Virus record (IMG/VR): IMGVR_UViG_3300007960_000165
Span: 1 to 25,343 of that record
Length of the DNA stretch: 25,343 bases
Direction: 5' to 3' (one strand)
Source: a virus
Part shown: positions 3,104 through 22,910 of the stretch, in pieces
Layout: each line of letters starts with the position of its first letter
Position numbering within the stretch: the stretch's first letter is position 1
Program-made: the position numbers and the translations under genes
The notes under the pieces: model-generated
Databases searched by the model: none
Told to the model about the DNA's origin: nothing
What the model saw: only the letters and a program-made list of their open reading frames with translations

Positions 3104-4653
3104 CCGACTCCATCGGCACGGCGGCCGCTATCTACCAGCGCGGCGTGACTGACCGCCTCTCCTTCGTGCGGCGCGCGGAGGACTGTGCCAAGCTCACGAT
3201 CCCCTCGCTGTTCCCGGAGACCGGCCACACCGCAACGAGCGAGCTGCCCACTCCTTACCAGGGGATCGGCGCGCGAGGAGTCAACTCCCTGTCGGCCAGC
3301 CTCCTGCTGGCCCTCCTGCCCCCGAACACCCCATTCTTCCGGCTCCAAGCCGACGCGCGGGTCTTCCAGCAGACGGAAGGCCTGGATGACATTCGGGGCG
3401 AGATCGAGGCCTCGCTCTCGATGATCGAGCAGCAGATCCTCGCCGAGATCGAACGAGGCAACTACCGGCCGGCCCTGGAGCAAGCTCTCCGCCAGCTCAT
3501 CGTCACCGGCAACTGCGTCTTCCGGCTCCAGCCCGAGGGCGGGGCGAAGGTCTACCGACTGAGCAACTTCGTCGCGCGCCGGCGACCGGACGGCCGGATG
3601 CAGGACCTGGTCATCCGGGAGTTCATTGACAGGGACGAGCTTCCGCCCGAACTCCGTGAGGAGCGGGTTGACGGCCACGATGCCGAGCATCAGACCGAGG
3701 ACCTCTACACCTGGGTCTGCTGGGAGGATGACCAAGTCCGGGTCCGGAAGGAGGCCTGCGGCCGAGAGATCGAGGAAGAGACCTTTGACCTCGCCGACAA
3801 CCCGTACCTCGTCCTCCGGTGGCATCGGGTCGACGGGGAGGACTACGGGCGGGGAATGATCGAGGAGTACCTCGGCGAGCTGGAGACCCTTGAGGGCCTT
3901 CAGCAGTCCGTGGTCGCGGCCAGCGCGGCCGCCTCGAAGGTCCTTTTCCTGGTCAACCCGGACGGGCGCACGGATGCAGACGAGATTGCCGAGGCCCCGA
4001 ACCTCGGGGTGCGCTACGGCAACGCCATGGATGTCGGGGTGCTTCAGGTCGGCAAGGCCCACGACCTGGCCACGGCCGGCCAGGTCATCAGCCAAATCAC
4101 GGAGCGTTTGTCGAGCGCGTTCATGCTGGCCGAGGGCAGCATCCGTCGCGCCGAGCGCGTGACGGCCACGGAGGTCCGCATGATGCTCGAGCAGCTCGAG
4201 CGTCAGCTCGGCGGGACCTACGCGCTCCTCTCGTCTGAGCTTCAGCTTCCCATGGTGAAGATGATCCACGCGAGGCTCGTCCGGGAACAGCGGGTAGACC
4301 CCCTGCCCGAGGGCTTCGTGGAGCCGATCATCGTCACCGGAGTCCAGGCCCTTGGCCGGAACTCCGACAACGCCAAGCTCGACGCGCTAGTCGGCGCGGC
4401 GATGCAGACCTTCGGCCCGGAGATCACCATGAAGTATCTCCACCTCGATGCGTGGTTTGCCCTCAAGGGGGCCGCCCTTGGCATCGAGACTCGTGGCCTC
4501 GTCAAGAGCAAGCAGGAGCTTGCCGAGGAGGAGCAGGCAGCGCGTCAAGCCGCGATGCAGGCCGCCGCCGGTCAGTCCCTGATCCAGGCCGGCGCGAATG
4601 CTGCGGGGCAACTTGCCACCCAGCCGCCGGCCCAAGAGAACCCCCAACAGTAG
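3100..4653 (+). CDS. Portal / head-to-tail connector protein (T7 gp8-like)
   Basis: This 517-residue protein is close in length to T7 gp8 (536). It would form the dodecameric ring at the unique capsid vertex through which DNA is packaged and ejected, and on which the tail is built. Typical traits of the family are visible. The N-terminal region reads RRAEDCAKLTIPSLFP, followed by the conserved GARGVNSLSASLLLALLPPNTPFFRL near residues 53-78. The central region contains RWHRVDGEDYGRGMIEEYLG near 245-264. The long helical stem carries SSAFMLAEGSIRRAERVTATEVRMMLEQLERQLGGTYALLSSELQLPMV near 338-386, and the C-terminus is Gln/Ala-rich. The start overlaps the upstream stop by 4 nt, and the scaffold gene follows after 3 nt. 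This is the secure anchor for the T7-like assignment. Confidence 0.95.
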   Translation: MTDSIGTAAAIYQRGVTDRLSFVRRAEDCAKLTIPSLFPETGHTATSELPTPYQGIGARGVNSLSASLLLALLPPNTPFFRLQADARVFQQTEGLDDIRGEIEASLSMIEQQILAEIERGNYRPALEQALRQLIVTGNCVFRLQPEGGAKVYRLSNFVARRRPDGRMQDLVIREFIDRDELPPELREERVDGHDAEHQTEDLYTWVCWEDDQVRVRKEACGREIEEETFDLADNPYLVLRWHRVDGEDYGRGMIEEYLGELETLEGLQQSVVAASAAASKVLFLVNPDGRTDADEIAEAPNLGVRYGNAMDVGVLQVGKAHDLATAGQVISQITERLSSAFMLAEGSIRRAERVTATEVRMMLEQLERQLGGTYALLSSELQLPMVKMIHARLVREQRVDPLPEGFVEPIIVTGVQALGRNSDNAKLDALVGAAMQTFGPEITMKYLHLDAWFALKGAALGIETRGLVKSKQELAEEEQAARQAAMQAAAGQSLIQAGANAAGQLATQPPAQENPQQ

Positions 4654-6655: not shown

Positions 6656-7240
6656 ATGCTCGACCTCACCAAACTCGAAGCCGTCAATGAGTGCCTCGCG
6701 GCCATCGGCGAAGCACCCGTCACCTCTCTAGCCGGCGACCTGCCCCTCGACGCGGAACTGGCGGAGAAGGAGGTCGACCGGTGCGACCGGGAGGTCCAGG
6801 CTCGCGGCTGGTCATTCAACTCCGACTTCGATGTCTCCCTCGAGCCGGACGGGAGCAACGAGATCGTCCTCGACGCGGCGGTCCTCCGCGTTGAGGCGGT
6901 CCTCCGGTCGGTGGACATCGCCATCCGTGGCGGCAAGCTCTATGACCTGGTCGAGCAGTCGTTCACTTTCACCTCTCCGGTCAGGGTGAACCAGGTCGTG
7001 GCCCTGTCGTTCGATGATCTGCCCCAGGTGGCCCGGGAGTACATCGCCAAGCGCGCCGCGCGCAAGTTCGCTGAGAAGGCTCTGGCCGGCCCCCAGCCGA
7101 CCCTGCGGGACGATGAGCGCGAGGCCAAGGCTGCCCTGCTTCGGAACGACGCGCGCACCCGGGACCTTCGGATCAGCGACACCGCCTCCGTTGGGCGGAT
7201 CACCCACCGGGTCAGTCCCTTCGACTGGAGGCACTTCTGA
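6656..7240 (+). CDS. Tail tubular protein A (T7 gp11-like)
   Basis: This 194-residue protein is almost the same length as T7 gp11 (196). It would form the dodecameric gatekeeper ring that joins the portal to the nozzle. The start LTKLEAVNECLAAIGEAPVTSL (residues 3-24) is the signature of the gp11/tail tubular A family. It is followed by the core around EKEVDRCDREVQARGWSFNSDFDVSL (near 40-65) and a helical C-terminus, YIAKRAARKFAEKALAG (near 129-145). It ends with ITHRVSPFDWRHF. The gene starts 32 nt after the capsid terminator, with a GAAAGA-like ribosome site. Its stop overlaps the ATG of tail tubular B by one base (TGATG), so the two tail components are translationally coupled. Confidence 0.92.
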   Translation: MLDLTKLEAVNECLAAIGEAPVTSLAGDLPLDAELAEKEVDRCDREVQARGWSFNSDFDVSLEPDGSNEIVLDAAVLRVEAVLRSVDIAIRGGKLYDLVEQSFTFTSPVRVNQVVALSFDDLPQVAREYIAKRAARKFAEKALAGPQPTLRDDEREAKAALLRNDARTRDLRISDTASVGRITHRVSPFDWRHF

Positions 7241-10200
7241 TGCCGCTGGTCAGCAAGGCCGTCGCCAACCTGATCGGTGGCGTAAGCCAGCAAGCCAGCA
7301 AGGCGCGCTTCCAGAACATGGCCGACGAGTCGGTCAACACTTGGCCGACCGTGCTTCGGGGCCTGGACAAGCGTCGACCGACCGAGCATCTCGGCAACCT
7401 TCTCTCGACCGCCGCCCCGTTCGCCAACGGGGTGCGCTTCCATGTGATCCGCCGAGACGCGGAGGAGCGGTACGCCCTGTTCATGTGGGACGCTGGTTCT
7501 GGCCAGACCGGCATCATGGCCTACGACCTGATCGCGGGAGAGGAGGTCAAGGTCTTCACGCGCTTCGACAACGGGGACGGAACCTTCACCTACACGAGCG
7601 TCGGCGGGGACTCCGGCGGCCTCTCGGACACTTACCTTCAGCCCTCGGCCGGCGCGACCGACTTCGCTTCGGACATCGAGTTCCTGACGGTGGCCGACTA
7701 CACCTTTGTGCTGAACAAGAAGGTGGTCCCGGAGATGTCGCCGGGCCTGACTCCGGACTACTCGAACGAGGCAGTCTTTGAGATCCGCGCGGCCAGCCCC
7801 GGCCTGGAGTACACGCTGTCCGTGGACGGCAAGAGCGCGCGGTACAAGCACCCGAACACCGGCAACTGGATCACCACGATGAACGCGGCGTGGGGTCTGG
7901 CCTACAAGGGGACCGGAGAAGTGGCGCAGTTCAAGTACGCCTCCTTCGCCAACTTGGAGGCCTTTGCGCAGTACCCCTGGTCGAGGCCGGCTTTCAAGGG
8001 ACAGCGGCCTGGCGCGGGGATGGACCGAGGCGGCGCGTGGATCCTCAACCCCATGATGGCCAGCACGGCCACCGTTGCCACCGGAGACGGGACCTCCACG
8101 GCCAATGGGATTGAGCCTGGGCCGATCTCCTCGAGCGGCTCGTCGATGTACATGCGCGGCCGGCTCCGTGGCCCGGACGGCCAGATTCACGACACCTATG
8201 CCACGACGGCGATCTCGCCGAGCGTCAACCACTCGTCCGGGTGGATCAGGTCGCGCGTCCTCGAGCTGTTCAGCCAAGCTGGGTGGAGCGGGACGGCGGG
8301 GGGCCAGAACGCGCTCGACCCGCCGGAGGTGACGGTCTATAGCTGCGTGGACAACGGGAACTCGGCGAACAAGTGGTACGACGGCGAGGGAAACTCTCAG
8401 CCCTCGAGCTACTACCTCGTTCAGGTGGAGCTGAATCCGAATCACGCCGGAACGAACGGCTACTACCCGATCCTGGACGATATCTATTGGGGGACCCTCA
8501 CCCTCGGCTCCAGCGACCAGAAGGGCGGCCCCGGGAAGCCGACCCATTGGTGGGCGCGGAAGAAGAACGCGATCTGGGTCCAGCGGTGGGACGGCTCCGA
8601 GATCCGGGCTTCCTCGAGCGACGGGCTGGGCGACACGGCCGTCCGGGGCGGCGGCGGCGAGGTGAGCCGGAAGGACGATCTCCCCTCTATCGCCGCGCAC
8701 GGGATGACCATGCGCGTCTCTGGCGGGAAGGCCTCGGAGCATGACGATTACTATGTGAAGTTCGAGCAGGACGATGCGAATAGCTGGGGGCCGTCCGGGA
8801 TGCGCCTCGGCAAGGGATCGTGGAAAGAGTGCCTCGCGCCGAACAGCGAGTACGCCATCAACCGCTTCACGATGCCGCACACGCTCCTGAACGCCGTCCA
8901 GGCCGGCGAGGCGGATCAGCCCGAGGTGGGTACTGGAGCGAACCAGGTGGAGTCGGGTAAGCCGTACTTCGTCTTTGAGAGCGCGACCTGGGAGGACCGG
9001 GGGGCGGGAGACGATACGACCAACCCGCTGCCGGCGTTCATCGGCCAGGCCATCCAGGGGATGACCTACCATCGGGGCCGGCTCGGCTTCCTGTCGGGCG
9101 AGAGCATCTCCCTGAGCGAAGCCGGCGATCCGTTCAACTTCTTCCGGCGGACGGTGGTCTCCAACCTGGACACCGACCGGATCGACCTCACCGCGCGCTC
9201 GACGGATGTCGCCCTGCTGAAGGGTGCGGTCGAGAGCCAGGAGCAGCTCCTGCTGTTCAGCGACAACGCCCAGTTCCGGCTCGACACGGGCGGCGAACTC
9301 CTGAGCGCGAACTCAGCGAGCCTCCTCCAGATCGGCCGGTACTCGACCCTGAGCGATGTCTCCCCGGTCGGCCTCGGCCCTGTGGTCTATTACCCGATCA
9401 CGCGCGGCGAGTGGGCTGGCGTGTCGCGGCTCTACAGCGAGGGCCAGGCCAACTCCCCCACCTGGCGCACCGACGAGGCGACCGCTCACATCCAGGCATA
9501 CATCCCGGCGGATATCGTCGAGATGGCCGGCTGCGACCTCGAGAACCTCCTGGTCTGCCTGACCACGAGCCGGGACACCCTCTACCTGTTCCGCTACCAC
9601 GATGCCGGCCAGGAGCGTCTCCAGGCGGCTTGGTTCAGGTGGGACCTCGGCGCGGCCAAGGTCCACGGGATGGCCTTCGTGAACTCGACGCTCTACCTGG
9701 CTGTCGAGCGCGAGGGGGTTGTCTGCCTCGAGCGCGTCCGCCTCGAAGACGGTCTCCTGGATGACCAGGCCTGGTACTTCGCCCGGATGGATCGCCGGAC
9801 GGACAACACCTCCTGCACGGTCATCGACAACGGCGACGGATCCTATCGGGTCCAGCTCCCCTACACGGTCCCGGCCGGCTCCACTCTGCGCCTCCTGGTG
9901 AAGCACACCGGCGGGGCGAACGACGGGGCCTGGCTCGACAGCAGCCCTTCGACCACGACGGCGGCGGACTTCACCACGGCGATCAACCTCGCCTCGGAGG
10001 ACTTCTTTGTCGGCCTGGCCTACGAGATGCGCCACACCATCGGGGAGCCGTACATGGAAGCCCCGGCCGGCCGGCAGACCATGGCCCTCCTCCCGGCGAG
10101 GTGGCAGATCAGGAAGGCCACCCTGCTGTTCTCCGAGTCCGGGCCGTTCACCGTAGAAGTGACCCCGGACAAGCGCGCGACGGACACGGTGACGATCTCG

Positions 10201-10365
10201 CCGGAGGCGGCGGGAGAGAGCCACGAGGGGCTGGCCACCGTCCCCGTCTGGTCCAGGAGCGACGGCTTCCAGTTCGACCTGGTGAACGACACGCCCTACC
10301 CCTCCCCCTTCATCAGCCTCGAGGTCGAGGGAGCGATGCACGGCAGGAGCCGCCGCATTGGCTAG
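7240..10365 (+). CDS. Tail tubular protein B / nozzle (T7 gp12-like)
   Basis: At 1,041 residues this is the presumed hexameric tail nozzle. It is larger than T7 gp12 (794), so it probably carries extra surface domains. The family start is evident: VSKAVANLIGGVSQQASKARFQN (residues 4-26) and the 'NTWPT...RRPTEHL' segment. The conserved central block is also present: GMTYHRGRLGFLSGESISLSEAGDPFNFF near 607-635, followed by LLLFSDNAQFRLDTGGELLSANSASLLQIGRYSTLSDVSPVGLG near 669-712. The extra length lies mainly between about residues 200 and 560 (Gly/Ser/Trp-rich). The C-terminus is beta-rich and ends SLEVEGAMHGRSRRIG. The gene is coupled to tail tubular A upstream and overlaps the next gene by 8 nt. 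Confidence 0.93.
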   Translation: MPLVSKAVANLIGGVSQQASKARFQNMADESVNTWPTVLRGLDKRRPTEHLGNLLSTAAPFANGVRFHVIRRDAEERYALFMWDAGSGQTGIMAYDLIAGEEVKVFTRFDNGDGTFTYTSVGGDSGGLSDTYLQPSAGATDFASDIEFLTVADYTFVLNKKVVPEMSPGLTPDYSNEAVFEIRAASPGLEYTLSVDGKSARYKHPNTGNWITTMNAAWGLAYKGTGEVAQFKYASFANLEAFAQYPWSRPAFKGQRPGAGMDRGGAWILNPMMASTATVATGDGTSTANGIEPGPISSSGSSMYMRGRLRGPDGQIHDTYATTAISPSVNHSSGWIRSRVLELFSQAGWSGTAGGQNALDPPEVTVYSCVDNGNSANKWYDGEGNSQPSSYYLVQVELNPNHAGTNGYYPILDDIYWGTLTLGSSDQKGGPGKPTHWWARKKNAIWVQRWDGSEIRASSSDGLGDTAVRGGGGEVSRKDDLPSIAAHGMTMRVSGGKASEHDDYYVKFEQDDANSWGPSGMRLGKGSWKECLAPNSEYAINRFTMPHTLLNAVQAGEADQPEVGTGANQVESGKPYFVFESATWEDRGAGDDTTNPLPAFIGQAIQGMTYHRGRLGFLSGESISLSEAGDPFNFFRRTVVSNLDTDRIDLTARSTDVALLKGAVESQEQLLLFSDNAQFRLDTGGELLSANSASLLQIGRYSTLSDVSPVGLGPVVYYPITRGEWAGVSRLYSEGQANSPTWRTDEATAHIQAYIPADIVEMAGCDLENLLVCLTTSRDTLYLFRYHDAGQERLQAAWFRWDLGAAKVHGMAFVNSTLYLAVEREGVVCLERVRLEDGLLDDQAWYFARMDRRTDNTSCTVIDNGDGSYRVQLPYTVPAGSTLRLLVKHTGGANDGAWLDSSPSTTTAADFTTAINLASEDFFVGLAYEMRHTIGEPYMEAPAGRQTMALLPARWQIRKATLLFSESGPFTVEVTPDKRATDTVTISPEAAGESHEGLATVPVWSRSDGFQFDLVNDTPYPSPFISLEVEGAMHGRSRRIG
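10345..10349 (+). promoter_or_regulatory. Shine-Dalgarno AGGAG that sets a TTG start
   Basis: AGGAG lies inside the end of the tail tubular B gene, 8 nt before TTG at 10358. No in-frame ATG is available until well inside the conserved part of the next protein. The motif therefore supports TTG as the start of the gp13-position gene. Confidence 0.6.
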
Positions 10366-11438: not shown

Positions 11439-14279
11439 ATGGCCGAGAACTTCCGCGCCAAGTCTTCCGCCCCCCGCGCGTCGGTCCCGGACTTCCAGCC
11501 GTTCGTTCCGATCCGGCCGGTGAGCTGGGGCGCGCTGCGCCAGCACCAGGCCACCGTCGACAACGGGCCGGCTCAGCAGCTCGCTCGCCTGGCCGAGTCG
11601 GTCGGCAACCTCAGCCCGACCCTCGCGCGCTACCTCCGAGTCCAGCGAGGCGAGGAGTTCGAGGCGAACAGAGAGGCCGTGGACGAGCGGATCCAGAACC
11701 TCACCGACGAGGACTGGGAGCTGATCCGAAGCGGCCAGGCCGAGGAAGTCGCCCGGGGCTACACCAGCGGCGGCTCGTCCGAGGCTCTCTACTGGAACGC
11801 CTCCCTCGGCCGGGAAGCAGCGAACCGGGTCATCACCTCGGCTGGTGCGGAAAAGCTCCTCCACGAGCTGACCACCGCCGACATGTATTCCACCTCCCTC
11901 GAGGAGAAGGAGGCCCGGCTCGAGGAGTACTGGTCCGCCGGCGGCGAGGGCCTGACCCCGATCCAGCGGCGGTTCTACAACGACACCGTCGACGCGCGCC
12001 GCGCGGAGTTCCGGCAGCGGCTCGTCCGCGACTCGAACGAGGCCAACCGCCAAGCGGCCCTCACCAGGCTCGAGTCCGACTATACCGAGGCCCTCCGGCG
12101 CGGCGAGAACCTCGGGGAGATCGAGGCCGAGCTGATGGCGGCCGGGGTGTCCCCGGATCACCTCCGCAAGCTCCACGCTATCGCCACGACCCAGGCTTAC
12201 CAGCACATGGTCACCGAGCTTGTCTCCAGCGGAGCGGACTGGCCGCAAATCCAGGAGCAGCTCGCCGAGTGGGAGGCGACCGTGGCGGAGCGCGTCCTCT
12301 CCAGCGGCGAGAAGTGGTCGACCCGAGGGGACATCCAGAAGGCCCTCCATGATGGAAGGCTCGCGGCGTATCAGAGCTGGGCCGCCGCTGACGGGATTGC
12401 TCGGGTAAACGAGCAGCGCGCCGAAAGGGTGTTCAAGGAAACCCGCAGCTCGGTTCTCGCGCGTCTCCGCACCTATCTGACGCAGGACCCGGCCCGGAGC
12501 GACCAGGACCTCATGGAGTTCGCTCGCCAGGTCGCCGTAGAAGAGGCCCTCGCCTTTGACGATTCCACCTCCGAAGAGGTCTACGCCCAATCCCTCAGTC
12601 AAGGCGACCTCAGCAGCCTTGTCTGGACCGCGAGGGACCTAACCAGCCAGAACACGGCCTTGGCGATCAGGGGTCTCCTCGAGCGGGTCGACCGTGGCGA
12701 GGTGGACTGGGACACGCTCCAGGTTTACATGGAGGTGTTCCCCCAGGCGGCGACCGCGCTCGAACAGGCGTGGGCGCGCCTGCCCTCGAATGTTGCGCTC
12801 GGGATCAACTGGGGCGAGAAGATCGACGGGATCGTCAGGCCGAACCAGCAGCGGCTAGCCAGCAACGACAGCCTCAGCTCCGAGTGGACCATCTTCCGGG
12901 AAGAGGCGGTCGACCGTCTGCGCGAAGCCTTCATTGCCAAGTACGGAGAGCTGCTCGAGAACGGGGAGTCGACCGGGCCGGCCCGGGCGAGTGCGCTGGA
13001 GTGGATCAGCGGGACGGAGGCAAGGAAGCTGGTCGCGGGAGACCAGGACTTGACCATGTTCTCGAAGGTCCCCGGAGTCGATGGGGCTGAGTCGCGCGCG
13101 CTGGTGAATGCAGCGACGGCTGCCCTCCGCGAGCTGGAAGCCGCCTTCTGGGCAGATGAAGGGACCGGGACCGACCCGCTCAACCCCTTCAATCTCGGCG
13201 ATGCGGCTATGGCCACCCTCGACGCGGCAGTAAAGGTCGAGGTCGAAGACTGGCTCGAAGGATACGACGGCGAGGTCGGGGACAGGGGGGAAGCCCTGGT
13301 CGAGGCCGTTGGCCAGGTGGGCGAAGGAAGCCTGAGCGAGAAGATCCGGGCCAGATTCCTGGCGACTTACCGAGAGGGCAAAGGCCGCCGCGCCGGGGAG
13401 GCCCGTCCCACCGGAGAAGCTCAGATCGGGCTTCGGGACGCGGTCGAAGCGGAAGAGCTGGGCGACCCGAAGGCGTGGAACCAGGTTCGCCAAATGCGCG
13501 CGGCGGACGCAAGCGAGAGCTACGCCGAACTCCACAAAATGACCTCCCGGCTTTTGGGTTGGTCGCTGTTCGATGCCCAGGTCAAGACCCAAAACGCCAA
13601 GGGAGAAGAAGCCGTCCTCGAGGGCGACGACGATGTCGTGGATCTCGTTGATGGCCGCTTCGTGGCAGAAAAGAGCGCGCCTTCGACCGAGGATCTCAGG
13701 TTCGCTGCGGCCGTGAACGCGGAGTTGCTGGACTTGGCCCTCAGCACGACGGTCGCTGTTCCTGTTGGAAAGGTAGATGACTTCGGCGACTTCGGCGACT
13801 TCAAATACAAAGGGAAATACGCCCCTCAATCGCCAGAAGGCTATACCGGTCTGGCCTTGCCGATGCTCGGCACGGTCCTGACCTACGGGCTTCCGCTCGT
13901 GGATGAAAAGACGCTTCGCCAGCGCAACCTGATGGCGTGGGCGGAGGGCGACTACGCGGTGGACCACGGCGCGCGGGGGGCCAAGGTGCATTACTGGGTT
14001 CCTTCCAAAGCGGAGTACGCCGAGTTCGCCCCGGACAAGCTGTTCCTCTTCCCCACCCCCGGCGACCTCCCCGAGGCCGATGACGAGGTGTGGGGCCACA
14101 TCCTCCGGGTTTACGAGTCGACGGCCGAGCGAACCGGCATCGACATCCGCGCGATGTGGCGCGCAGACCAGGGTGATCTTGTCGACACCGACCCGGCGGA
14201 AGACCCGAGCCGGGAAGACCTGTTGGACTACCTCTACGACCTCCAGGCCGACCTGGCCGACGCTCACCGCCTGAACTGA
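11439..14279 (+). CDS. Internal virion protein C-like (T7 gp15 position)
   Basis: This 946-residue, largely alpha-helical protein occupies the slot of T7 gp15 (747), an ejected core protein that forms the periplasmic tube for DNA entry. The N-terminus is Pro-rich and extended. Helical, Glu/Ala/Arg-rich sequence follows through most of the chain (for example TRLESDYTEALRRGENLGEIEAELMAAGVSPDHLRKLHAIA near 208-248). No catalytic motif is seen. In the last quarter (about 13520-13830) the DNA is less GC-rich than its surroundings and encodes an FGDFGDF repeat, so this part may be a recent insertion or a fast-evolving segment. The stop overlaps the start of the giant gene by one base. The call rests on gene order and helical composition. 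Confidence 0.78.
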   Translation: MAENFRAKSSAPRASVPDFQPFVPIRPVSWGALRQHQATVDNGPAQQLARLAESVGNLSPTLARYLRVQRGEEFEANREAVDERIQNLTDEDWELIRSGQAEEVARGYTSGGSSEALYWNASLGREAANRVITSAGAEKLLHELTTADMYSTSLEEKEARLEEYWSAGGEGLTPIQRRFYNDTVDARRAEFRQRLVRDSNEANRQAALTRLESDYTEALRRGENLGEIEAELMAAGVSPDHLRKLHAIATTQAYQHMVTELVSSGADWPQIQEQLAEWEATVAERVLSSGEKWSTRGDIQKALHDGRLAAYQSWAAADGIARVNEQRAERVFKETRSSVLARLRTYLTQDPARSDQDLMEFARQVAVEEALAFDDSTSEEVYAQSLSQGDLSSLVWTARDLTSQNTALAIRGLLERVDRGEVDWDTLQVYMEVFPQAATALEQAWARLPSNVALGINWGEKIDGIVRPNQQRLASNDSLSSEWTIFREEAVDRLREAFIAKYGELLENGESTGPARASALEWISGTEARKLVAGDQDLTMFSKVPGVDGAESRALVNAATAALRELEAAFWADEGTGTDPLNPFNLGDAAMATLDAAVKVEVEDWLEGYDGEVGDRGEALVEAVGQVGEGSLSEKIRARFLATYREGKGRRAGEARPTGEAQIGLRDAVEAEELGDPKAWNQVRQMRAADASESYAELHKMTSRLLGWSLFDAQVKTQNAKGEEAVLEGDDDVVDLVDGRFVAEKSAPSTEDLRFAAAVNAELLDLALSTTVAVPVGKVDDFGDFGDFKYKGKYAPQSPEGYTGLALPMLGTVLTYGLPLVDEKTLRQRNLMAWAEGDYAVDHGARGAKVHYWVPSKAEYAEFAPDKLFLFPTPGDLPEADDEVWGHILRVYESTAERTGIDIRAMWRADQGDLVDTDPAEDPSREDLLDYLYDLQADLADAHRLN

Positions 14280-17200
14280 TGATCAACCCGTACGGCTACC
14301 GTTTCAGCGACAATGTCACGAAGGGCGAGGAGAACTGGGCCTTCCAAATGGCTGCGGCTCCGTTCCGCGCCGCCGAGGGGCTGTTCTCGTCGGTCTATAA
14401 CCTGGCGGACTTCGTCAGCTTCGATGCTCTCCCCGACTACGGGGAGCGGAAGCTCGGGACCTCGGAGTTCTGGGCCGCCTCGCTCCTCGAGGGAGGCCTT
14501 CAGTTCCTCGTCCCCTTTGGGACCCTCACGAAGGGGGCGAAGGCCCTCACCTCTCTCAGCCGCTTCGGCGGACTTGCGACCCGTTACCGCAGAATGAGCA
14601 AGGTGGGCCAATGGGCCGTGCGCGACCTGGCCGGCGGCGCGCTGGTGGACATGGTGGCCTTCGAGGGGAACGAGGGTCGACTCGCGGATCTCCTGGTCCA
14701 GTTCCCCGAGCTTCAGAATCCGCTGACGGAGTACCTGGCCAGCGACGAGGATGACGGATTCCTCGAGGCCCGGCTCAAGAACGCCATCGAGGGCGGGATT
14801 CTTGGCTCGGGGGTGGACGGCCTCATGGCCGCGTTCTCTGGGGTCCGGCGCAAGATCCGGGGGTCCGGCCGCAGCCGCGTTGCGGCGAACGGGATGGAGG
14901 ATGTGCTGAGTGTCGCCGAGCGGCAGGCATTGAACTCCTCGACGGCCAAGTTCTTCCGGGAGGTGTATGGCTACGACCACGACGAGGTCCTTGCGACGGA
15001 GGCGGTGATTGACGCGCTCGGCCTCGACCGCTCCCGGATCATCCTGGACGAGGACGGCAGGCTGTTCCTCGACCACGCGGCGAACTCGCCGGAGATCCTG
15101 GCCAAGCTCGAGCGAGGCGAGATCAACGGGTACACGATTCGCGGCCAGGAGCTGGGAACGGTCATCATCGGCGGCTTCAAGAACGCCGACGCAAGCACCG
15201 GGCTTCACGAGATCCTCCACGCCACGCGGTCGATGCTGTTCGACATGCGGATCGACTCGTCCCTGCGGACCGGCGTAACGGACGAGATGATCCATGCGGC
15301 GGCCAAGTGGGCCGGCGCAGTCTGGGACGAGGCGACCGGGACCTACAAGTGGGGCCGCGAGGCAGAGGAGAAGTTTGCTCGCGCCGGCGAGCTGTACTTC
15401 CGCGACGGCAAGGCTCCCTCCCCTGAGCTGGAGTCGCTGTTCGAGAAGTTCACCGAGTTCCTGACGAAGATCTACCGCAAGGTCTCCGGCTCCGCCATTG
15501 ATGTCGACCTCTCGCCTGAGATGAAGGACATCTTCGACCGTCTGGTCCAGCGCGGGAAGGCCGTCCCCGACGAGGATCTCGTCGCGCGCCGACTTGAGGC
15601 GGTGGGCCGGCCGGACGAGTCGGCCGGCGAGGTCCTCCTCCAGCTCCAGCGGAGCTTCCTCGAGCCGATCTCCGACGAGCTTCGGGACGAGGCCCCCTAC
15701 AAGCTCCGGGCATCGGCGAACGAGGACACGATCCACCTGGCTCACGAGGAGCTGGACGCTATCGAGGCAGAGCGAGGCGAGATCACCTCTGGGGAGCAGT
15801 TCCACCGATTCCTCACCAAGCTGTGGAAGGGAAAGGCCTTCCTCGGGGAGGACGGGGAGATGATGCCGCGCCAAGGCCAGTTCATCGGCCGCCTTCTCGA
15901 TGACCCGGCGTACACCAAGGAGTTCTTCGGCAAAGCCAGCGACGAACAGATCGAGGCCGCACAGCATGGCCTGGAGACTGCCGCCGCTTTGGGCGAACTG
16001 TACGCGAAGGGCGATCCCGGGGCGGACACCACTTTGATGACGGCGTTCTGGGCGATCCTCTCTCGCTCCGCTGCTGTCGCGCCACAGGAGACTGCGTTCG
16101 TCGATTCGATCTATCGGGCTAACCGGCTGATGAGCCGGATCCTCGACCACGCCTCGAACCGAAAGGCCATCGACAACCTCGACGATGTCTTGACGGGCGA
16201 GATGCAATGGACTGCGGACATCCTGATGGGCAAGGGTCTCCTCGCGGAGGCGATGGAGCGGATCGCCTCAGGGAAAGACTTCGACGATGCGTTCTACTTG
16301 AAGTGGGACGCGGAGATGGACCCGAGTCGGACCAAGCGGGCCGGGCGGTTTGAGCGCGAGGCGGATCTGTCCGAGGACGGCGGCCTCGTCGCCCAGGTGA
16401 AGGAGATCATCTTCTCCGGGGCGAAGGTCCCGGATGATCTCCGCCGGCGGATCCAGGCGATCCGCCCCGACGATGAGGTCTTGAGCCAGCCCCGCTACAC
16501 CCACCCGGGTGTGTCGGTGGTATCGAATGTGAACTCGGCTGGTCTCGAGCTGTTCCGTGAGCTGTTCCGCCCCACGAAGGACGGGCGGACCAAGATCCAG
16601 GTCCTCCACGACATGCTCGTCGAGGGGAAGAGCGGGAGGGAGATCCGTCGCTGGTGGCACGGCGCGGTCCAGGGGGCCGGCATGGACAACAAGATCCTCA
16701 GCTTCATGCTCCTCGTTCTCGGAAAGGAGGATGTGATGGTCTGGGATCGCGTCCGGTACAGCATGGAGTTCGCCCTGGATTCGGACGAGAATGTCTACTC
16801 GAGCCTGACCGACGCGGCCTTCGGGAAACTTGAGAAGGAGGTCGGTTCAGAAGCAGCGCGGCTCCACGGTCGAGACGGCTTCGCCACCACGGGCAACGGC
16901 CTTTACGGGGTGGCGTTCAGCGAGGCAAGTGAGTCGGCAGTTCGCCACATCCTCCGGACGCAGAGGCCCATGCCGGAGGGGCTGAACCACATCGGCGGGT
17001 TCCATTGGCTCTCCTGGGTGATCCATTCCGGCCAGGTCACCAGCCACGCCAGCGTCGAGCGCATCCTCGACTATGCCCGGGCCACGCCCGAGCAGCGAGG
17101 GATGCTCCAGGAGATGTTCGACGGCACTCTCGTGACCGAGCAGCGGTACGAGCAGAAGACCTTTGGTCATGCCTTCGGCTACATCGACGGGCAGCCGGCG

Positions 17201-20200
17201 GTGGTGATCGCTGACCCTGTCACCGGAAGCCCGATCCGCGTCGAGGTCGATGACTGGGACACGATCAAGACGATCCTCCAGGGAGCGTCCGGCTACAAGG
17301 AGGCTCTCGCCGGGGAGGGCATGACCCCATCGGTGACTCGCGCGCTGACCGGCGCGGAGTTCGGGTGGGTCGAACATAAGAAGAAGAGCGCGAACTGGGC
17401 GTGGTACAATGACCCCGCCTTCGCGGACAACAAGCACCATGGCGAACTCCTCCGACGATTCTATTCCCACTTCGGCGCAGCTTTCCAAGGAGGCGAAGGC
17501 TCACTTGCGGAAGCTGCTCGAAATGCAGCTCCCCTTCGACCCGAGCAACGGGCAGCCTCCGCCGCAGCAGTCGAAACCCAAGCCCAGGCGGTCCTACTCG
17601 GAAGAGCTGGAGGGGTGGGCGAAGCTTTCGCCGGGCCGACTGCTCGGTCTGGGGGTGGTGGTCTCGCCACGCTCGGACAGCTCGGAGCCTCCGGCAAGCG
17701 AGTAGTCAAGGGATTCGTCGACGCGCTTCTCCCCGATGGGGCGAAGTGGCAGGACTACATCGAGACGGTCCACGCCGTCGACGGTGCTAGGGCGACGGGC
17801 TACAAGCACATCGGGATTCATGTCGCAGACCCGAGTGGCTCCGGCTCTGGATTCGCGGAGCTGAAGCCGGCCGGCGAGAGCATCTTCCGCGAGGCCGCCG
17901 AGCGCGCGCGCGCGGCGGACCCGGAGAACATCTCCGGAGCGATTCCGGACGATCTCCCCGAGGGGAGCCGCATGCTCATCTCCCCCACGGGAGAAGGGGG
18001 CCTCCTCATCAACGGGGACGAGGTCCTCGCTGTGTTCGATATCCCCCGCCACGGCAGCACGGTGCAGCTTGCCGACCTGGCCATCAGCAACGGGATCAAC
18101 AAGGTCACCGTGGAGGGGCCGTTGGCCACGGGCTTCTCGGTGGTCGGCATGCGGCCCATCTCTGTGGACGGCAACCGGGTGACCCTGGTCCGCGACCCGG
18201 AGTTCGGCGTGGTGGTCACTCGTGACAACGCGGCCGACTTCGTCCGGGACGGCGACAATCTCCTCCTCCAGGAGTCCGCGAAGCCGGCGATCCGCGAGGA
18301 TCTGTGGGACCTGGGCAAGATCAACGAGAAGCAGGAGATCGGCTCCGCCAAGACCAGCCGCAGCCAGATCCCTGGCGGGATGCGCGTCGCCATCGAGAAG
18401 GGCTACCTCAAGGCCGGGATGCGGAATGTCGACATCGGCGGTGGCAAGTTCGACAAGGGGACCCAGTTCCTCCGCGAGAGCGGCGTGGACTCTGAGGTCT
18501 TTGACCCCTTTACTCGTGATGCCGGCCACAATCGGCGAGTGCGGGACAGCAGGGCTGGAGGCCAGTCGGATTCCGCGACGGTCCTCAATGTCCTGAATGT
18601 GATCCGCGAGCCGGAGGCCCGTGCGATGGTCCTCGAGCGCGCGCTCGACGCTCTGCGGCCTGGCGGCCGGCTCGTGGTCCAGGTCTACGAGGGAGCGGGC
18701 GACGGAGCCGGCAAGGCCACCCGCGACGGCTGGCAGGAGAACCGCAAGCTCTCGTCCTACCTTGACGAGGTGCGCCAGGTCTTCCCCAACGCCGAGCGGG
18801 AGGGGGGCCTGATCGTGGCAACGAAGGATGTTCCCGGGACCAGCCGGGTCGAGGCCGCTCGGGCCGAGCTGGAAGCCGCCAAGGCCCACCAGCTTGAGGT
18901 CCTCAAAGCGACTCGAGACCGCAGCCCCTACGACAATGTCCCCTCCAGGGCATCGGCGCAGGAGCGCGTCTATGCTGCCCAGCAGCGCGTCTACGAGGCA
19001 CAGCAGGCCGCCTACCGGGAGGGGGACCTGCTCCTCCAGGAGGCGGACACGACGAACGCCCGGCGTGGCGACCGGGACGAGTTCCCGGACGATCCGGTGA
19101 ACCTCGACCGGATCCACTCGAACGAGGACATTGCCCGGGGCCTTGCGAGGGCCTTCGACGAGGTCGAGATGCCGGATCTCGGGGAGATGAGCCTCGAGGA
19201 GGCCGCCGAGGATGCCCTGGCGGAGGCCCGTGGCCTCATGGAGGAGATGGGCGAGGGGTCGGCAGATGACCACCAGCTCATCAAGGCCCTCCTCGGCACG
19301 ACCCACCAGGCCATCGCCACTTTTAGCCGCAAGACCCAGGCTGCTCGGGCGTTCCTGGCCAGGGTGTCTGGCCAGTACGCCGACTACCTCACGGGCAAGG
19401 TGGATCTCGATACGGGCGAGTGGCTCGGCACGGACGAGGAGCTGGCCGAGGCCCTCCGCCGCCGCGCCATCCTCATCAACTCGGCCGTCGAGGTGCGGCG
19501 CGTCCAGCGCGCCATGGCCCAAGCCCTGGGTGCGAACCGCATCCGGTTCTCGGGCCGCTTCCAGGAGGGCGTGGCGATCCCGCGTCCCCCGATTGACCCG
19601 TCTGCCGGCGAGGCGGCCGCTGGGGCTGCTGCGCGCGGCCGTCAGGCCTCTCCCCGGGCTGGTGGGCCGTTCCCCCGGGAAGCGGCCGACGCTGCTCAGG
19701 CGGCGCGAGAGGCGGCTTCCAGCGGCGGTGGCGGGGCGGCCGGCAGCACGGCCGGCGGCGCGACCGGCGGCCGAGGCCTGTCCACCCCGACCGGCCGGGT
19801 CCCGAACCCCACCCTCCCGGGCGGCGGCGGCGGCGGTGGCCAGGGGCAGGCGGCGGCTGGCGGCGGCGGCGGCCGGCGGCCGGCGGCCCCGGTCGAAGAG
19901 GCCGAGGGCGGCCGCAGGAAGAAGCGTCGACAGAAGAAGCAGCGCGGCGGCCCGAAGAAGACCGCGCTCCCGGGGACCTCGGCCACGCCGGGTGGAGAGG
20001 TCGCCCCGTCCTCGGCGGCCAAGCCCACGCCCTCGCGGGACGGCGCGGCCAAGAAGGTCCCGATCCCGAAGCCGGCAAGCGACAGCAAGGCCCTCGAGGC
20101 CCTGATCGACAAGCACGGCGGCCGGCGGAAGGTCATCAAGATGCTCTCGCAGGACCTGGTGTATCGGGAAGCGAACCCCGGCGCGTCCGTCGTGGTCAAG

Positions 20201-22279
20201 CCCAGGAACTTCTGGTCCATGCTCCCCGAGTACTGGATGAACAACCTCCTGAGCGGCCCGATCACCTTCGCCGTCAACCTCGCCAGCAACTCCATTCGGA
20301 TGCTGGCCGACCCGATTGAGCGCGGCCTGGGCAACCTCCTCACCGGCCAAGCCGGCCAGGCCCGGCGGGAGCTTTCCGAGCTGGTGGCGATGGCCCAGGA
20401 GCTGCGCGAGGCGGTCAAGCTCTCGGCGGTTGCCCTGAAGGAGGACACGAGCAAGCTCGTCCCGGGCGGCGGCGGCGGCCTGGACGAGTTCGGCCGCTCC
20501 ACCCGGGCCATCTCGGCGGATGGCCAGGGTGTTGGGCGCGAAACCGTGACCGGCAAGGCCCTCGACTGGCTCGGCAAGTTCGTCAACATCCCGAGCCGGC
20601 TGCTGATGGGCAGCGACGAGTTCTATAAGCAATGGACCTACCGGAGCCGGATGCTGCGGCGGACCCACGAGATCGCGTTCTCTCGCTACACGGACGCGAC
20701 CGAGCGCGCCGAGTTCATCCACCGGATGATGCGCGCCTCGGGGGCCGAGGGCCAGGTCTACACGAGGGACGCGCTGCGCCGAGAGGCCAGCAAGCAAGCA
20801 GCCCAGGCCGGCCTGACGGGGAACGAGGCTGACAAGTTCATCCTCCAGTACATGGACCAGCATTGGGACTCCGAGGTCGGGCGCGAAGCGGCGAAAGCCC
20901 TCCAGTCCGCGCGCGAGTCCACCTTCACGCAGGACCTCGAGAAGACGGCCAGCGACCGGGGCATTCTCAGCATGATGACCGGCGGCCGGGACGAGAACGG
21001 CGCGCGCGTGGCCGGCCCCGGCCTGCGCGGCACGATCAACCTGGCCTCGGCCACCCTCGCCGATGCGGTGGGCAAGGTCCCGGCTCTCCGGTTCATCTTC
21101 CCCTTCATCCGCACCCCCACGAACATCATGCAGTACTTCCTCGACCGCTCGGTCGGGGTGGTGAGCGAGGCCGCGCGGCTGCTCGTGGACGGCGAACTGC
21201 GGCGCGCCTCGACCAAGGCAGACCTGGCGGATCTGGCCGGCCGTGCTTCGACCGGCGCGGTCCTGTTCGGCTCGGCCGTCATGCTGGCGATGCAGAAGGA
21301 TGACCGCGACCTCCCGATGCTGACGGGGGCCGGCCCGGACAACCCGGACGAGCGGAAGATGTGGCAGGCCAGCGGGTGGCAGCCCTACTCGATTCGAGTC
21401 GGGGACCGCTACATCAGCTACCGCCGCCTCGACCCCTCGGCCCTCTTCTTCGGGATGGTCGCCGACCTGGTCCAGAACAAGGCTCACGCCGAGATGCTGA
21501 ACCAGCAGCCCGAGTACGGCAAGGCGGTCTTCGTTGCCCTGGTGAACAACCTGGCCAGCAAGAGCTACCTGACGGGCGCGCTCAACCTCGCCCGTCTGTT
21601 CAACTCGCCGGCGCAGGAGTTCCAGTATGTCTACAACGGGTGGGTCACGGGCTTCGCCCCCCACTCGAGCTTCGTCCACCAGGCCCTCAACCCGGCCCTC
21701 AAGGGCGACGAGGTCTTCCACGAGCTGCGGACGGCGGCCGATGCGTTCGCCAGCCGGAGCTTCTGGAAGGACCCGGCCGGCAACCCGACCAAGTACGACT
21801 TCCTCGGCCGGCCCGTGAAGCGGGACGCTGGCATCGGGCCTGACTGGGGCAGTCCTCTCCGCACGACCGAGGCCTCGGACGATGCGCTGTTCTCGGAGCT
21901 GATCGCTTCGGGCGCGTCCTTCGGGCCGCCGCGCGAAACGGACGGGAATGTCGACCTCACCTCCTTCCGTGGTCCGGACGGCGTACAGACCGCGTATGAC
22001 CGATGGCTCCAGCTCCATGGCGAGGTCAAGCTGGGCAAGCGCGGCCTCGAGGCGGCCCTGCGAAGGGTGACGCAAAGCAAGGGGTACAAGCAGATGAGTC
22101 CGGTGGGCTTCGACCAGGTGGACTCGCCCCGAGTCTCGCTTCTCCGCCGGGTTTACTCGGCCTACCGCACGAAGGCGAAGATCGAGATGCTCAAGGAGTT
22201 CCCCGAGTTGCGGAAGGCCCTGGACAAGCAGCGTCGTGATGCCCTCCTCCTGGCGCGCGGCGAGAACCGAAACCGATGA
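14279..22279 (+). CDS. Giant multidomain internal virion protein (gp16 position, polyvalent type)
   Basis: At 2,666 residues this is almost twice T7 gp16 (1,318), which is ejected with the DNA. Visible parts are as follows. The N-terminal ~120 residues are helical. A zinc-metalloprotease motif HEILH lies at 310-314, with a downstream EEKFARAGELYF (363-374) that could supply the third ligand. A region at about 740-825 is Lys/Asp-rich and weakly resembles helix-hairpin-helix glycosylases. A beta/alpha region at about 1175-1325 may be GNAT-like. A SAM-methyltransferase-like domain spans about 1365-1518 (VDIGGGKFDKG at 1384-1394, LRPGGRLVV near 1460). A Gly/Ala/Lys linker covers about 1777-1937. 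The C-terminal domain (1941-2666) contains FPFIRTPTNIMQYF. No lytic transglycosylase motif is seen. Residues 1054-1143 overlap a second ORF. The organisation fits phage 'polyvalent' proteins; individual domain roles are inferred. Confidence 0.88.
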   Translation: MINPYGYRFSDNVTKGEENWAFQMAAAPFRAAEGLFSSVYNLADFVSFDALPDYGERKLGTSEFWAASLLEGGLQFLVPFGTLTKGAKALTSLSRFGGLATRYRRMSKVGQWAVRDLAGGALVDMVAFEGNEGRLADLLVQFPELQNPLTEYLASDEDDGFLEARLKNAIEGGILGSGVDGLMAAFSGVRRKIRGSGRSRVAANGMEDVLSVAERQALNSSTAKFFREVYGYDHDEVLATEAVIDALGLDRSRIILDEDGRLFLDHAANSPEILAKLERGEINGYTIRGQELGTVIIGGFKNADASTGLHEILHATRSMLFDMRIDSSLRTGVTDEMIHAAAKWAGAVWDEATGTYKWGREAEEKFARAGELYFRDGKAPSPELESLFEKFTEFLTKIYRKVSGSAIDVDLSPEMKDIFDRLVQRGKAVPDEDLVARRLEAVGRPDESAGEVLLQLQRSFLEPISDELRDEAPYKLRASANEDTIHLAHEELDAIEAERGEITSGEQFHRFLTKLWKGKAFLGEDGEMMPRQGQFIGRLLDDPAYTKEFFGKASDEQIEAAQHGLETAAALGELYAKGDPGADTTLMTAFWAILSRSAAVAPQETAFVDSIYRANRLMSRILDHASNRKAIDNLDDVLTGEMQWTADILMGKGLLAEAMERIASGKDFDDAFYLKWDAEMDPSRTKRAGRFEREADLSEDGGLVAQVKEIIFSGAKVPDDLRRRIQAIRPDDEVLSQPRYTHPGVSVVSNVNSAGLELFRELFRPTKDGRTKIQVLHDMLVEGKSGREIRRWWHGAVQGAGMDNKILSFMLLVLGKEDVMVWDRVRYSMEFALDSDENVYSSLTDAAFGKLEKEVGSEAARLHGRDGFATTGNGLYGVAFSEASESAVRHILRTQRPMPEGLNHIGGFHWLSWVIHSGQVTSHASVERILDYARATPEQRGMLQEMFDGTLVTEQRYEQKTFGHAFGYIDGQPAVVIADPVTGSPIRVEVDDWDTIKTILQGASGYKEALAGEGMTPSVTRALTGAEFGWVEHKKKSANWAWYNDPAFADNKHHGELLRRFYSHFGAAFQGGEGSLAEAARNAAPLRPEQRAASAAAVETQAQAVLLGRAGGVGEAFAGPTARSGGGGLATLGQLGASGKRVVKGFVDALLPDGAKWQDYIETVHAVDGARATGYKHIGIHVADPSGSGSGFAELKPAGESIFREAAERARAADPENISGAIPDDLPEGSRMLISPTGEGGLLINGDEVLAVFDIPRHGSTVQLADLAISNGINKVTVEGPLATGFSVVGMRPISVDGNRVTLVRDPEFGVVVTRDNAADFVRDGDNLLLQESAKPAIREDLWDLGKINEKQEIGSAKTSRSQIPGGMRVAIEKGYLKAGMRNVDIGGGKFDKGTQFLRESGVDSEVFDPFTRDAGHNRRVRDSRAGGQSDSATVLNVLNVIREPEARAMVLERALDALRPGGRLVVQVYEGAGDGAGKATRDGWQENRKLSSYLDEVRQVFPNAEREGGLIVATKDVPGTSRVEAARAELEAAKAHQLEVLKATRDRSPYDNVPSRASAQERVYAAQQRVYEAQQAAYREGDLLLQEADTTNARRGDRDEFPDDPVNLDRIHSNEDIARGLARAFDEVEMPDLGEMSLEEAAEDALAEARGLMEEMGEGSADDHQLIKALLGTTHQAIATFSRKTQAARAFLARVSGQYADYLTGKVDLDTGEWLGTDEELAEALRRRAILINSAVEVRRVQRAMAQALGANRIRFSGRFQEGVAIPRPPIDPSAGEAAAGAAARGRQASPRAGGPFPREAADAAQAAREAASSGGGGAAGSTAGGATGGRGLSTPTGRVPNPTLPGGGGGGGQGQAAAGGGGGRRPAAPVEEAEGGRRKKRRQKKQRGGPKKTALPGTSATPGGEVAPSSAAKPTPSRDGAAKKVPIPKPASDSKALEALIDKHGGRRKVIKMLSQDLVYREANPGASVVVKPRNFWSMLPEYWMNNLLSGPITFAVNLASNSIRMLADPIERGLGNLLTGQAGQARRELSELVAMAQELREAVKLSAVALKEDTSKLVPGGGGGLDEFGRSTRAISADGQGVGRETVTGKALDWLGKFVNIPSRLLMGSDEFYKQWTYRSRMLRRTHEIAFSRYTDATERAEFIHRMMRASGAEGQVYTRDALRREASKQAAQAGLTGNEADKFILQYMDQHWDSEVGREAAKALQSARESTFTQDLEKTASDRGILSMMTGGRDENGARVAGPGLRGTINLASATLADAVGKVPALRFIFPFIRTPTNIMQYFLDRSVGVVSEAARLLVDGELRRASTKADLADLAGRASTGAVLFGSAVMLAMQKDDRDLPMLTGAGPDNPDERKMWQASGWQPYSIRVGDRYISYRRLDPSALFFGMVADLVQNKAHAEMLNQQPEYGKAVFVALVNNLASKSYLTGALNLARLFNSPAQEFQYVYNGWVTGFAPHSSFVHQALNPALKGDEVFHELRTAADAFASRSFWKDPAGNPTKYDFLGRPVKRDAGIGPDWGSPLRTTEASDDALFSELIASGASFGPPRETDGNVDLTSFRGPDGVQTAYDRWLQLHGEVKLGKRGLEAALRRVTQSKGYKQMSPVGFDQVDSPRVSLLRRVYSAYRTKAKIEMLKEFPELRKALDKQRRDALLLARGENRNR
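17439..17705 (+). CDS. Candidate overprinted 88-codon ORF inside the giant gene
   Basis: In the +1 frame relative to the giant gene, an ORF runs from ATG 17439 (MANSSDDSIPTSAQ) to TAG 17703-17705. Counting codons by hand, about 82% end in G or C, which is the genomic pattern. The giant gene's own frame drops to roughly 50% over the same stretch and returns to normal on both sides. The product looks natural. It has a helix, SKEAKAHLRKLLEMQLPFD (16-34), a Pro/Lys-rich segment and SYSEELEGWAKLSPGRLLG (53-71). The same DNA in the giant frame gives Ala/Gly/Arg-rich, linker-like sequence. No Shine-Dalgarno is evident before the ATG, so expression is uncertain. No function is known. Confidence 0.5.
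   Translation: MANSSDDSIPTSAQLSKEAKAHLRKLLEMQLPFDPSNGQPPPQQSKPKPRRSYSEELEGWAKLSPGRLLGLGVVVSPRSDSSEPPASE
19819..19890 (+). repeat. GGC-rich low-complexity tract encoding a polyglycine linker
   Basis: Runs of GGC/CGG units encode two poly-Gly stretches separated by Gln/Ala in the giant virion protein. Just after the tract, a basic cluster (RRKKRRQKKQ) follows near residue 1880. The tract is part of a roughly 160-residue disordered linker between the methyltransferase-containing half and the ejection-protein-like C-terminus. Slipped-strand length variation would be expected here. Confidence 0.6.
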
Positions 22280-22458
22280 TCCCTGACCCCGACAAGACCC
22301 CGAACACGATCCTGGAGCGCGGCCTTCTCGCCTCGACCAGCGCGCTGCTCGCCCTCGCCCTCTGGGTAGCACTCCAGGCCCTCGAACAGGTCGAGCGAAA
22401 CCGTGAGGTGATCTGGGACCACGACACCAGGATCGCCTTGCTGGAGGCGGAGAAGTGA
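22276..22458 (+). CDS. Small single-span membrane protein, holin candidate
   Basis: This 60-residue protein has a short hydrophilic N-terminus and one strong transmembrane segment (GLLASTSALLALALWVALQAL, residues 16-36). A charged helix follows (EQVERNREVIWDHDTRIALLEAEK, 37-60) with heptad-like hydrophobic spacing. The size and single span resemble T7 gp17.5, the class II-type holin found between genes 17 and 18, and the gene lies in the equivalent region before terL. The start overlaps the giant gene's stop by 4 nt (ATGA), and its stop overlaps the next gene's GTG by 4 nt. A membrane-anchored spanin partner or other lysis regulator is an alternative. No signal-peptidase site is seen. Confidence 0.65.
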   Translation: MIPDPDKTPNTILERGLLASTSALLALALWVALQALEQVERNREVIWDHDTRIALLEAEK

Positions 22459-22910
22459 GAGGCTCGGCGAGGCGCGCGTTCGCGGCCCTCAGGGAGGCGT
22501 TCGGCCGGAAGGCCGCCCTGGCGGTCATGGTCGGCCTCGCGGCTCTGTGGCTCCTCGCAGGCTGCTCCCAGGCCCAGGTGGTCGAGGGGACGCATACGGC
22601 CGGAACCGTTGCCGCAGCCGGGGCGGCCGCCGCCGGGGCGGTCGGGCTGGGCCTCGGCTGGCCGGCGGCCCTCGGCCTGGCTGTCGCCGCCACCGCCGCC
22701 GCCGAGGCGGCTCTCCCGAAGGGCCTCGAGCAGGCTCCGCCGGCGGATCCGGCGGCCGTCCAGACGGGCTGGGGCTACCTGGCCTTCGTGACCGGCGAGT
22801 ACCTCCCCTGGCTTATCGGGTGCGCCGCTCTCCTGTGGCTGCTCCCGCCGCCGGGGACGGTGGTCCGGAACATCCTGGCCTACCTCCGCCGGGAGGTCCT
22901 CGGCCGCTGA
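22455..22910 (+). CDS. Predicted lipoprotein with further hydrophobic spans, lysis-associated candidate
   Basis: This 151-residue protein starts at GTG 22455, overlapping the previous stop. A basic N-region (RGSARRAFAALREAFGRK, 2-19) is followed by a hydrophobic core and a lipobox, LAGC, with Cys37. This predicts lipid modification. Ser at +2 does not signal inner-membrane retention, so sorting to the outer membrane is expected. Residues about 50-86 are Ala/Gly-rich and hydrophobic, and a strong second span lies near the C-terminus (YLPWLIGCAALLWLL, about 117-131), followed by a basic tail. A lipid anchor plus C-terminal membrane span is the topology of unimolecular spanins such as phage T1 gp11. 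A multi-span holin with a chance lipobox is the alternative. The position between the holin candidate and terL supports a lysis role. Confidence 0.6.
   Translation: MRGSARRAFAALREAFGRKAALAVMVGLAALWLLAGCSQAQVVEGTHTAGTVAAAGAAAAGAVGLGLGWPAALGLAVAATAAAEAALPKGLEQAPPADPAAVQTGWGYLAFVTGEYLPWLIGCAALLWLLPPPGTVVRNILAYLRREVLGR

Follow-up and report, generated by a model that had tools for sequence, protein, structure and literature searches.

The question raised by this locus is whether a small gene is genuinely encoded in the +1 frame inside a giant virion-protein gene, or whether the change of coding frame seen there has another origin. The window analysed in this study is the whole 25,343-base virus record IMGVR_UViG_3300007960_000165, which represents a T7-like phage with genes for the head-tail adaptor, scaffold, capsid, tail, nozzle and internal virion proteins, followed by TerL. 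A first-pass annotation had claimed that, at 17439-17705, the codon signature passes from the frame of the giant ORF (14279..22279, plus strand, 2666 aa) into the +1 frame. Three readings were offered: a genuine gene embedded in DNA that codes for a linker, three genes merged into one by the loss of stop codons with the small gene's DNA kept as linker, or a pair of compensating indels.

The switch of codon signature into the +1 frame proved to be real by GC3, by a codon model and by synonymous re-drawing. Within 17429-17698, GC3 is 0.53 in the giant frame, 0.81 in the +1 frame and 0.62 in the +2 frame, while the giant frame reaches 0.82-0.93 in the flanks. A codon model fitted to the remaining genes of the window favoured the +1 frame by up to 20.7 nats per 50 codons from ~17430 to ~17700, and the giant frame elsewhere around it. 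The null for the codon test consisted of 5000 synonymous re-drawings of the giant-frame peptide, which gave a giant-frame GC3 of 0.858 ± 0.035 (minimum 0.717) in 17409-17702, compared with 0.545 observed. The +1-minus-giant log-likelihood was +10.1 for the 98 codons from 17409 and +23.8 for the 88 codons from 17439, compared with -62 ± 7.6 (maximum -35.7) simulated for 98 codons. The codon shift of the nested ORF towards the +1 frame thus amounts to about 10 standard deviations (z = 10.0), in agreement with a second codon table, and z ranged from -1.9 to 2.4 for the eight remaining +1 ORFs of the giant gene that begin with ATG and have at least 45 codons. As 85% of the re-drawings stay open in the +1 frame, the length of the +1 ORF is uninformative by itself. 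These data indicate a second-frame coding signature beyond what the first frame explains, as expected of an overlapping gene.

The nested gene occupies 17409..17705 on the plus strand (98 codons, TAG stop at 17703-17705), with an alternative ATG at 17439 that would give 88 codons. The first-pass annotation had chosen 17439, to which the codon signature by itself also points. In the relatives, many ATG starts are found directly behind a conserved Trp-Tyr of the big frame, and the counterpart of this position in the window is 17409. The start of the small gene is thus placed at either 17409 or 17439, of which the former fits the Trp-Tyr context. The Shine-Dalgarno match at the window's small start is weak (3 nt).

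Concerning the products of the two frames, the AlphaFold model of the small protein is mostly disordered apart from a predicted helix at residues 27-38 (KEAKAHLRKLLE; 17487..17522, plus strand) with a conserved L-x-x-L core, in which Leu36 is nearly invariant among 42 sequences. The small proteins of relatives are 9-26% identical to that of the window, which matched no family in Pfam, PHROGs or NCBIfam. The Ala/Gly/Arg-rich giant-frame product beneath the nested gene (17438..17704, plus strand) had been described as linker-like, and its low codon adaptation, its mostly low model confidence and the absence of BLAST homology to L008 and L153 are in accord with that description. A local alignment of the linker with L008 over 36 aa was judged to be due to chance.

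When pieces of the window were used directly as queries, no close relative was identified in the collections. L008 was found via alignments; it is 43% identical in the C-terminal part of the giant protein and has a +1 ORF at the corresponding position. The homology of the small protein to that of L008 alone reached a z of ~2 only and was hence given no weight. A profile search with the domain that immediately precedes the nested gene identified 76 other viral contigs that share it. A fixed rule, under which an ORF of at least 45 codons had to start 200-470 nt past the FHW motif of the domain, was applied to 54 distinct loci; it identified a +1 ORF in 52 of them, compared with a +2 ORF in 5 of the 54, mostly the next gene. 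The two exceptions, L195 and L211, have the +1 ORF slightly further downstream.

These +1 ORFs are also related in sequence. With an HMM whose training ORFs were chosen by position and from which the window was left out, the window's +1 ORF ranked top of 397 segments (E = 2e-4; next, 0.56). When 57,136 segments from all loci were searched, each listed match with E < 5 was a +1 ORF beside the upstream domain, and the reversed-sequence control gave no matches. The small-gene HMM matched in 79 of the 82 ORFs bearing the upstream domain, and in the other three (L156, the duplicate L259 and the MAG contig L285) the +1 ORF was seen by inspection. The codon z of the small ORFs had a median of 4.05 and was positive in all cases, the window's copy being among the strongest, whereas 190 other +1 ORFs of the same big ORFs, used as a null set, had a mean z of 1.26 (sd 1.52).

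Several further nested ORFs were observed outside this family or at other positions. L153 and L162 were left out of the family because, in spite of strong +1 signatures, they do not carry the upstream domain. In L153, the nested +1 ORF (3980-4225, z = 7.5) lies behind a DUF7178 module and not an Ogg-like domain, in a giant protein whose ends are 35-41% identical to those of the window's giant. The 131-codon +1 ORF of L162 (10983-11378, codon z = 5.1) lies within a 4707-aa ORF of a different phage type. L238 (7358-7519) and L237 (2782-2937) each carry a second nested +1 ORF farther 3' in the giant gene; its products in these two contigs clearly resemble each other (ESxNSKK...QSDTxExLxKLV), with a codon z of 4.0 in L238.

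Selection on the overlap was estimated in relatives with a fused ORF, from the third positions of the big frame that differ within five closely related pairs. Changes were found at 13 of 226 third positions (6%) in the overlap, compared with 291 of 1360 (21%) upstream (Fisher p = 1.5e-9) and 66 of 396 downstream (Fisher p = 5e-5). In these relatives, therefore, the conserved ORF is accompanied by suppressed synonymous change, the combination expected of overlapping genes; the suppression is demonstrated in relatives only, since the collections contain no close relative of the window. Such an alignment and synonymous-rate comparison had been proposed in the first-pass annotation, according to which relatives that keep the giant-frame residues and break the +1 ORF with stops would speak against a gene. 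The outcome was the reverse: the +1 ORF is kept in relatives, and the giant-frame peptide beneath it is unconserved among distant ones. The reading of a real gene in a linker region is supported by the homologous +1 ORFs, the synonymous suppression, the enrichment of Shine-Dalgarno-like sequences described below and the leave-one-out profile.

The cassette occurs in different gene states. In ~14 loci, the stop of the domain gene falls inside the small gene or shortly after it, and virion protein D is encoded by an ORF of its own that follows. A single ORF holds the domain, the small gene and the virion-protein part in the window, L008, L156, L191 and L260, and in the remaining loci the domain and the small gene lie inside long ORFs of different content. 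The C-terminal internal-virion-protein-D part of the window's giant (20063..22258, plus strand), which is a separate gene in the split relatives, is homologous to stand-alone genes of L206 (E = 2e-16) and L242 (E = 2e-5). In an unrooted tree of the domain, all split loci but one fall into a single clade, and the window's branch is very long. As for the proposed merging of three genes into one, the gene state itself is borne out by the ~14 relatives with three separate genes in the same order. With this tree unrooted and the split loci confined to one clade and one locus, the change could have been either fusion in the window's line or splitting in the relatives.

Explanations other than a translated nested gene were weighed against these data. 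As the window is a metagenomic contig, a pair of indels near 17440 and 17705, from sequencing or assembly, might mimic a frame switch; this reading is refuted by L008 and dozens of contigs assembled independently from other metagenomes, all with the same +1 switch at the homologous position, and the +1 frame has its own stop. Programmed +1 frameshifting, which phages use in other genes, would give the domain an alternative C-terminal tail ending at 17705 and no separate small protein, and it would suit the location of the +1 sequence close behind the domain end in all loci. The start signals argue against it: the start codon of the small gene is ATG in 50 of 54 loci, an SD-like match of 5 or more precedes 37% of the small starts compared with 6.8% of control ATGs, and in 52 of 54 loci the small start is preceded by an in-frame +1 stop at a distance of no more than 72 nt. 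Frameshifting is thus unlikely.

Two further readings accept the small gene and deny its product a present role. In one, the formerly real gene is now a silent relic of fusion, mere linker DNA without translation in the window's phage. The weak SD match, the reading-through of the giant ORF and the high divergence of the small proteins would agree with this, but it appears very unlikely, since the window's codon signature would decay in the absence of selection, its small ORF is unbroken, and fused ORFs are common among relatives with a conserved overlap. In the other, the small ORF acts only as a translational coupler from the domain gene to the virion-protein gene; it does bridge both genes in the split loci, with a ~10-nt overlap with the next start in L206 and L228. 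We regard this as highly improbable, because the small ORF persists in fused ORFs, in which coupling would serve no purpose, and its L-x-x-L/Pro core is conserved from one context to another. Both the passive relic and the mere coupler are disfavoured by the retention of the small gene in fused ORFs with suppressed synonymous change.

The conserved domain directly 5' of the nested gene corresponds to giant aa 538-1053 (15890..17437, plus strand; FHW motif at 17000). Its putative catalytic Lys (giant aa 805, 16691..16693, plus strand) and Asp (giant aa 823, 16745..16747, plus strand) are both invariant in 42 aligned relatives. A profile of the relatives aligned, via the HhH motif, with the Ogg of Methanocaldococcus jannaschii at E-values below usual significance (3fhf, E = 0.23; 3knt, E = 1.6). 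In this alignment, Lys805 corresponds to the Lys of 3fhf (Gln in 3knt) and Asp823 to the Asp in AIIDRH of Ogg2, and the Lys-Asp spacing is 18 residues in both. The catalytic Lys and Asp in an HhH motif that define the Ogg2 HhH-GPD type are thus indicated by the alignment and by invariance in the 42 members. The domain model had a pTM of 0.71, with a core that folds confidently, and its best fold matches were uncharacterised proteins of uncultured phages. Foldseek independently ranked 3knt second and also listed 3n0u, both weakly, the best glycosylase having E = 1.4; the glycosylase matches had probabilities of 0.47 and 0.20 and a target TM of about 0.38. Searches against Pfam models gave no match. 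Taken with the Ogg2-family 8-oxoguanine N-glycosylase/DNA lyase (3fhf/3knt), the phage domain shares the HhH-like motif and the Lys/Asp spacing, with weak fold matches, but it is much larger, mostly helical and located within phage proteins, and the E-values are not significant alone. The profile and Foldseek results, both weak, suggest with moderate confidence that the domain is of the Ogg2-like DNA glycosylase/lyase type.

Regarding the enclosing gene, aa ~60-200 and aa ~1943-2666 of the giant protein are homologous to the ~1300-aa internal virion protein D of Roseobacter and Pelagibacter phages; the ORF matches PHROG 6651 'internal virion protein' (E = 2.8e-42) and is placed in the structural operon, with the nozzle gene before it and TerL after it. 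These N- and C-terminal homologies and this position identify it as an internal virion protein D of the T7 gp16 type into which further modules have been inserted. Compared with the Autographiviridae protein of about 1300 aa, it has 2666 aa, and its insert contains a nested gene. The giant-gene protein is probably injected by the phages together with their DNA. The extra middle of ~1500 residues includes a metallopeptidase-like HExxH site (giant aa ~310-314) and a methyltransferase-like module (PF13489; 18404..18724, plus strand; hmmscan E = 3.9e-6 on the piece), and the methyltransferase region, aa 1328-1516, is about 52% identical to L009. This module was found 3' of the nested gene in the window and 5' of the Ogg-like domain in L285, a case of module shuffling.

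The methyltransferase, the HExxH site and the shuffled modules in relatives place the giant among the polyvalent proteins, the giant multidomain proteins of phages and conjugative elements (Iyer et al. 2017, PMC5512222), which have a metallopeptidase-like HExxH and a methyltransferase module alike. Relatives of the window's giant carry ART-PolyVal, LPD22 and LPD23. As differences from the polyvalent set of PMC5512222, the text of that survey contains neither 'glycosylase' nor 'overlapping', and the Ogg-like domain of the window is matched by no Pfam model.

Other features were observed in the window. The nozzle protein (7240-10365) has 1041 aa compared with a 794-position model, which suggests an insert of ~250 aa. 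Before TerL, at 22276-22910, a small one-TM-like ORF and an ORF with a lipobox (LLAGC) resemble lysis genes; a family search with the latter gave no match. A 1699-aa antisense ORF on the minus strand (17594-22693) is probably a high-GC by-product.

Based on this evidence, the best explanation, which we hold with high confidence as a whole, is that the nested gene is functional, translated by itself and part of a two-gene cassette in the ejection protein, with shared linker DNA. In this explanation, ribosomes would initiate at an internal start and translate 17409-17705 as a product of its own, in the +1 frame relative to the giant virion-protein ORF, and the window's copy of the small gene would be expressed. 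The cassette would pair an Ogg2-like DNA glycosylase/lyase-type domain with a small protein that is mostly disordered and has a single short conserved helix; the gene of this protein overlaps the sequence coding for the domain at its 3' end. The cassette would sit inside the gp16-type ejection protein of the window's phage. There, the three genes would be one ORF, and the small gene's DNA would serve also as linker. The domain may be a DNA glycosylase injected with the genome.

A functional pair is suggested by the linkage, which is strict through module shuffling and in both fused and split states. On this linkage, the chances that the small protein is a partner of the domain appear about even. 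The small protein may bind and act on the neighbouring domain, restraining, folding, escorting or targeting it up to the packaging or injection of the ejection protein, and any one of these forms is less probable than the partnership itself. More tentatively, and with the balance somewhat against it, the cassette could be a widespread two-protein unit, in which a virion-delivered glycosylase/lyase-like effector and an inhibitor, chaperone or delivery factor nested in the +1 frame of the effector's own gene travel as one DNA unit through the module shuffling of ejection proteins.

Overlapping genes in phages are a known kind, and Rz1 of lambda is nested in the +1 frame within Rz, both being functional. 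The window's nested gene is likewise a small +1 gene in a larger gene, but, unlike Rz1, it carries no lipoprotein signal, and both its product and the gene around it are different. Searches of the cultivated phages in the collection with three representatives each of the domain and the small proteins gave no match, and a literature search found no description of the small-protein family or the cassette; both appear to be undescribed within the searched sources. Nested genes are easily overlooked by gene callers. The one described here is shared by dozens of uncultivated phages, in linkage with a single domain. If real, it would represent a new small-protein family together with a likely virion-delivered DNA-acting domain. 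It would also be a clear natural case of separate genes and a single ORF alternating around a conserved overlapped gene, through which the origin and upkeep of overlaps would therefore become testable.
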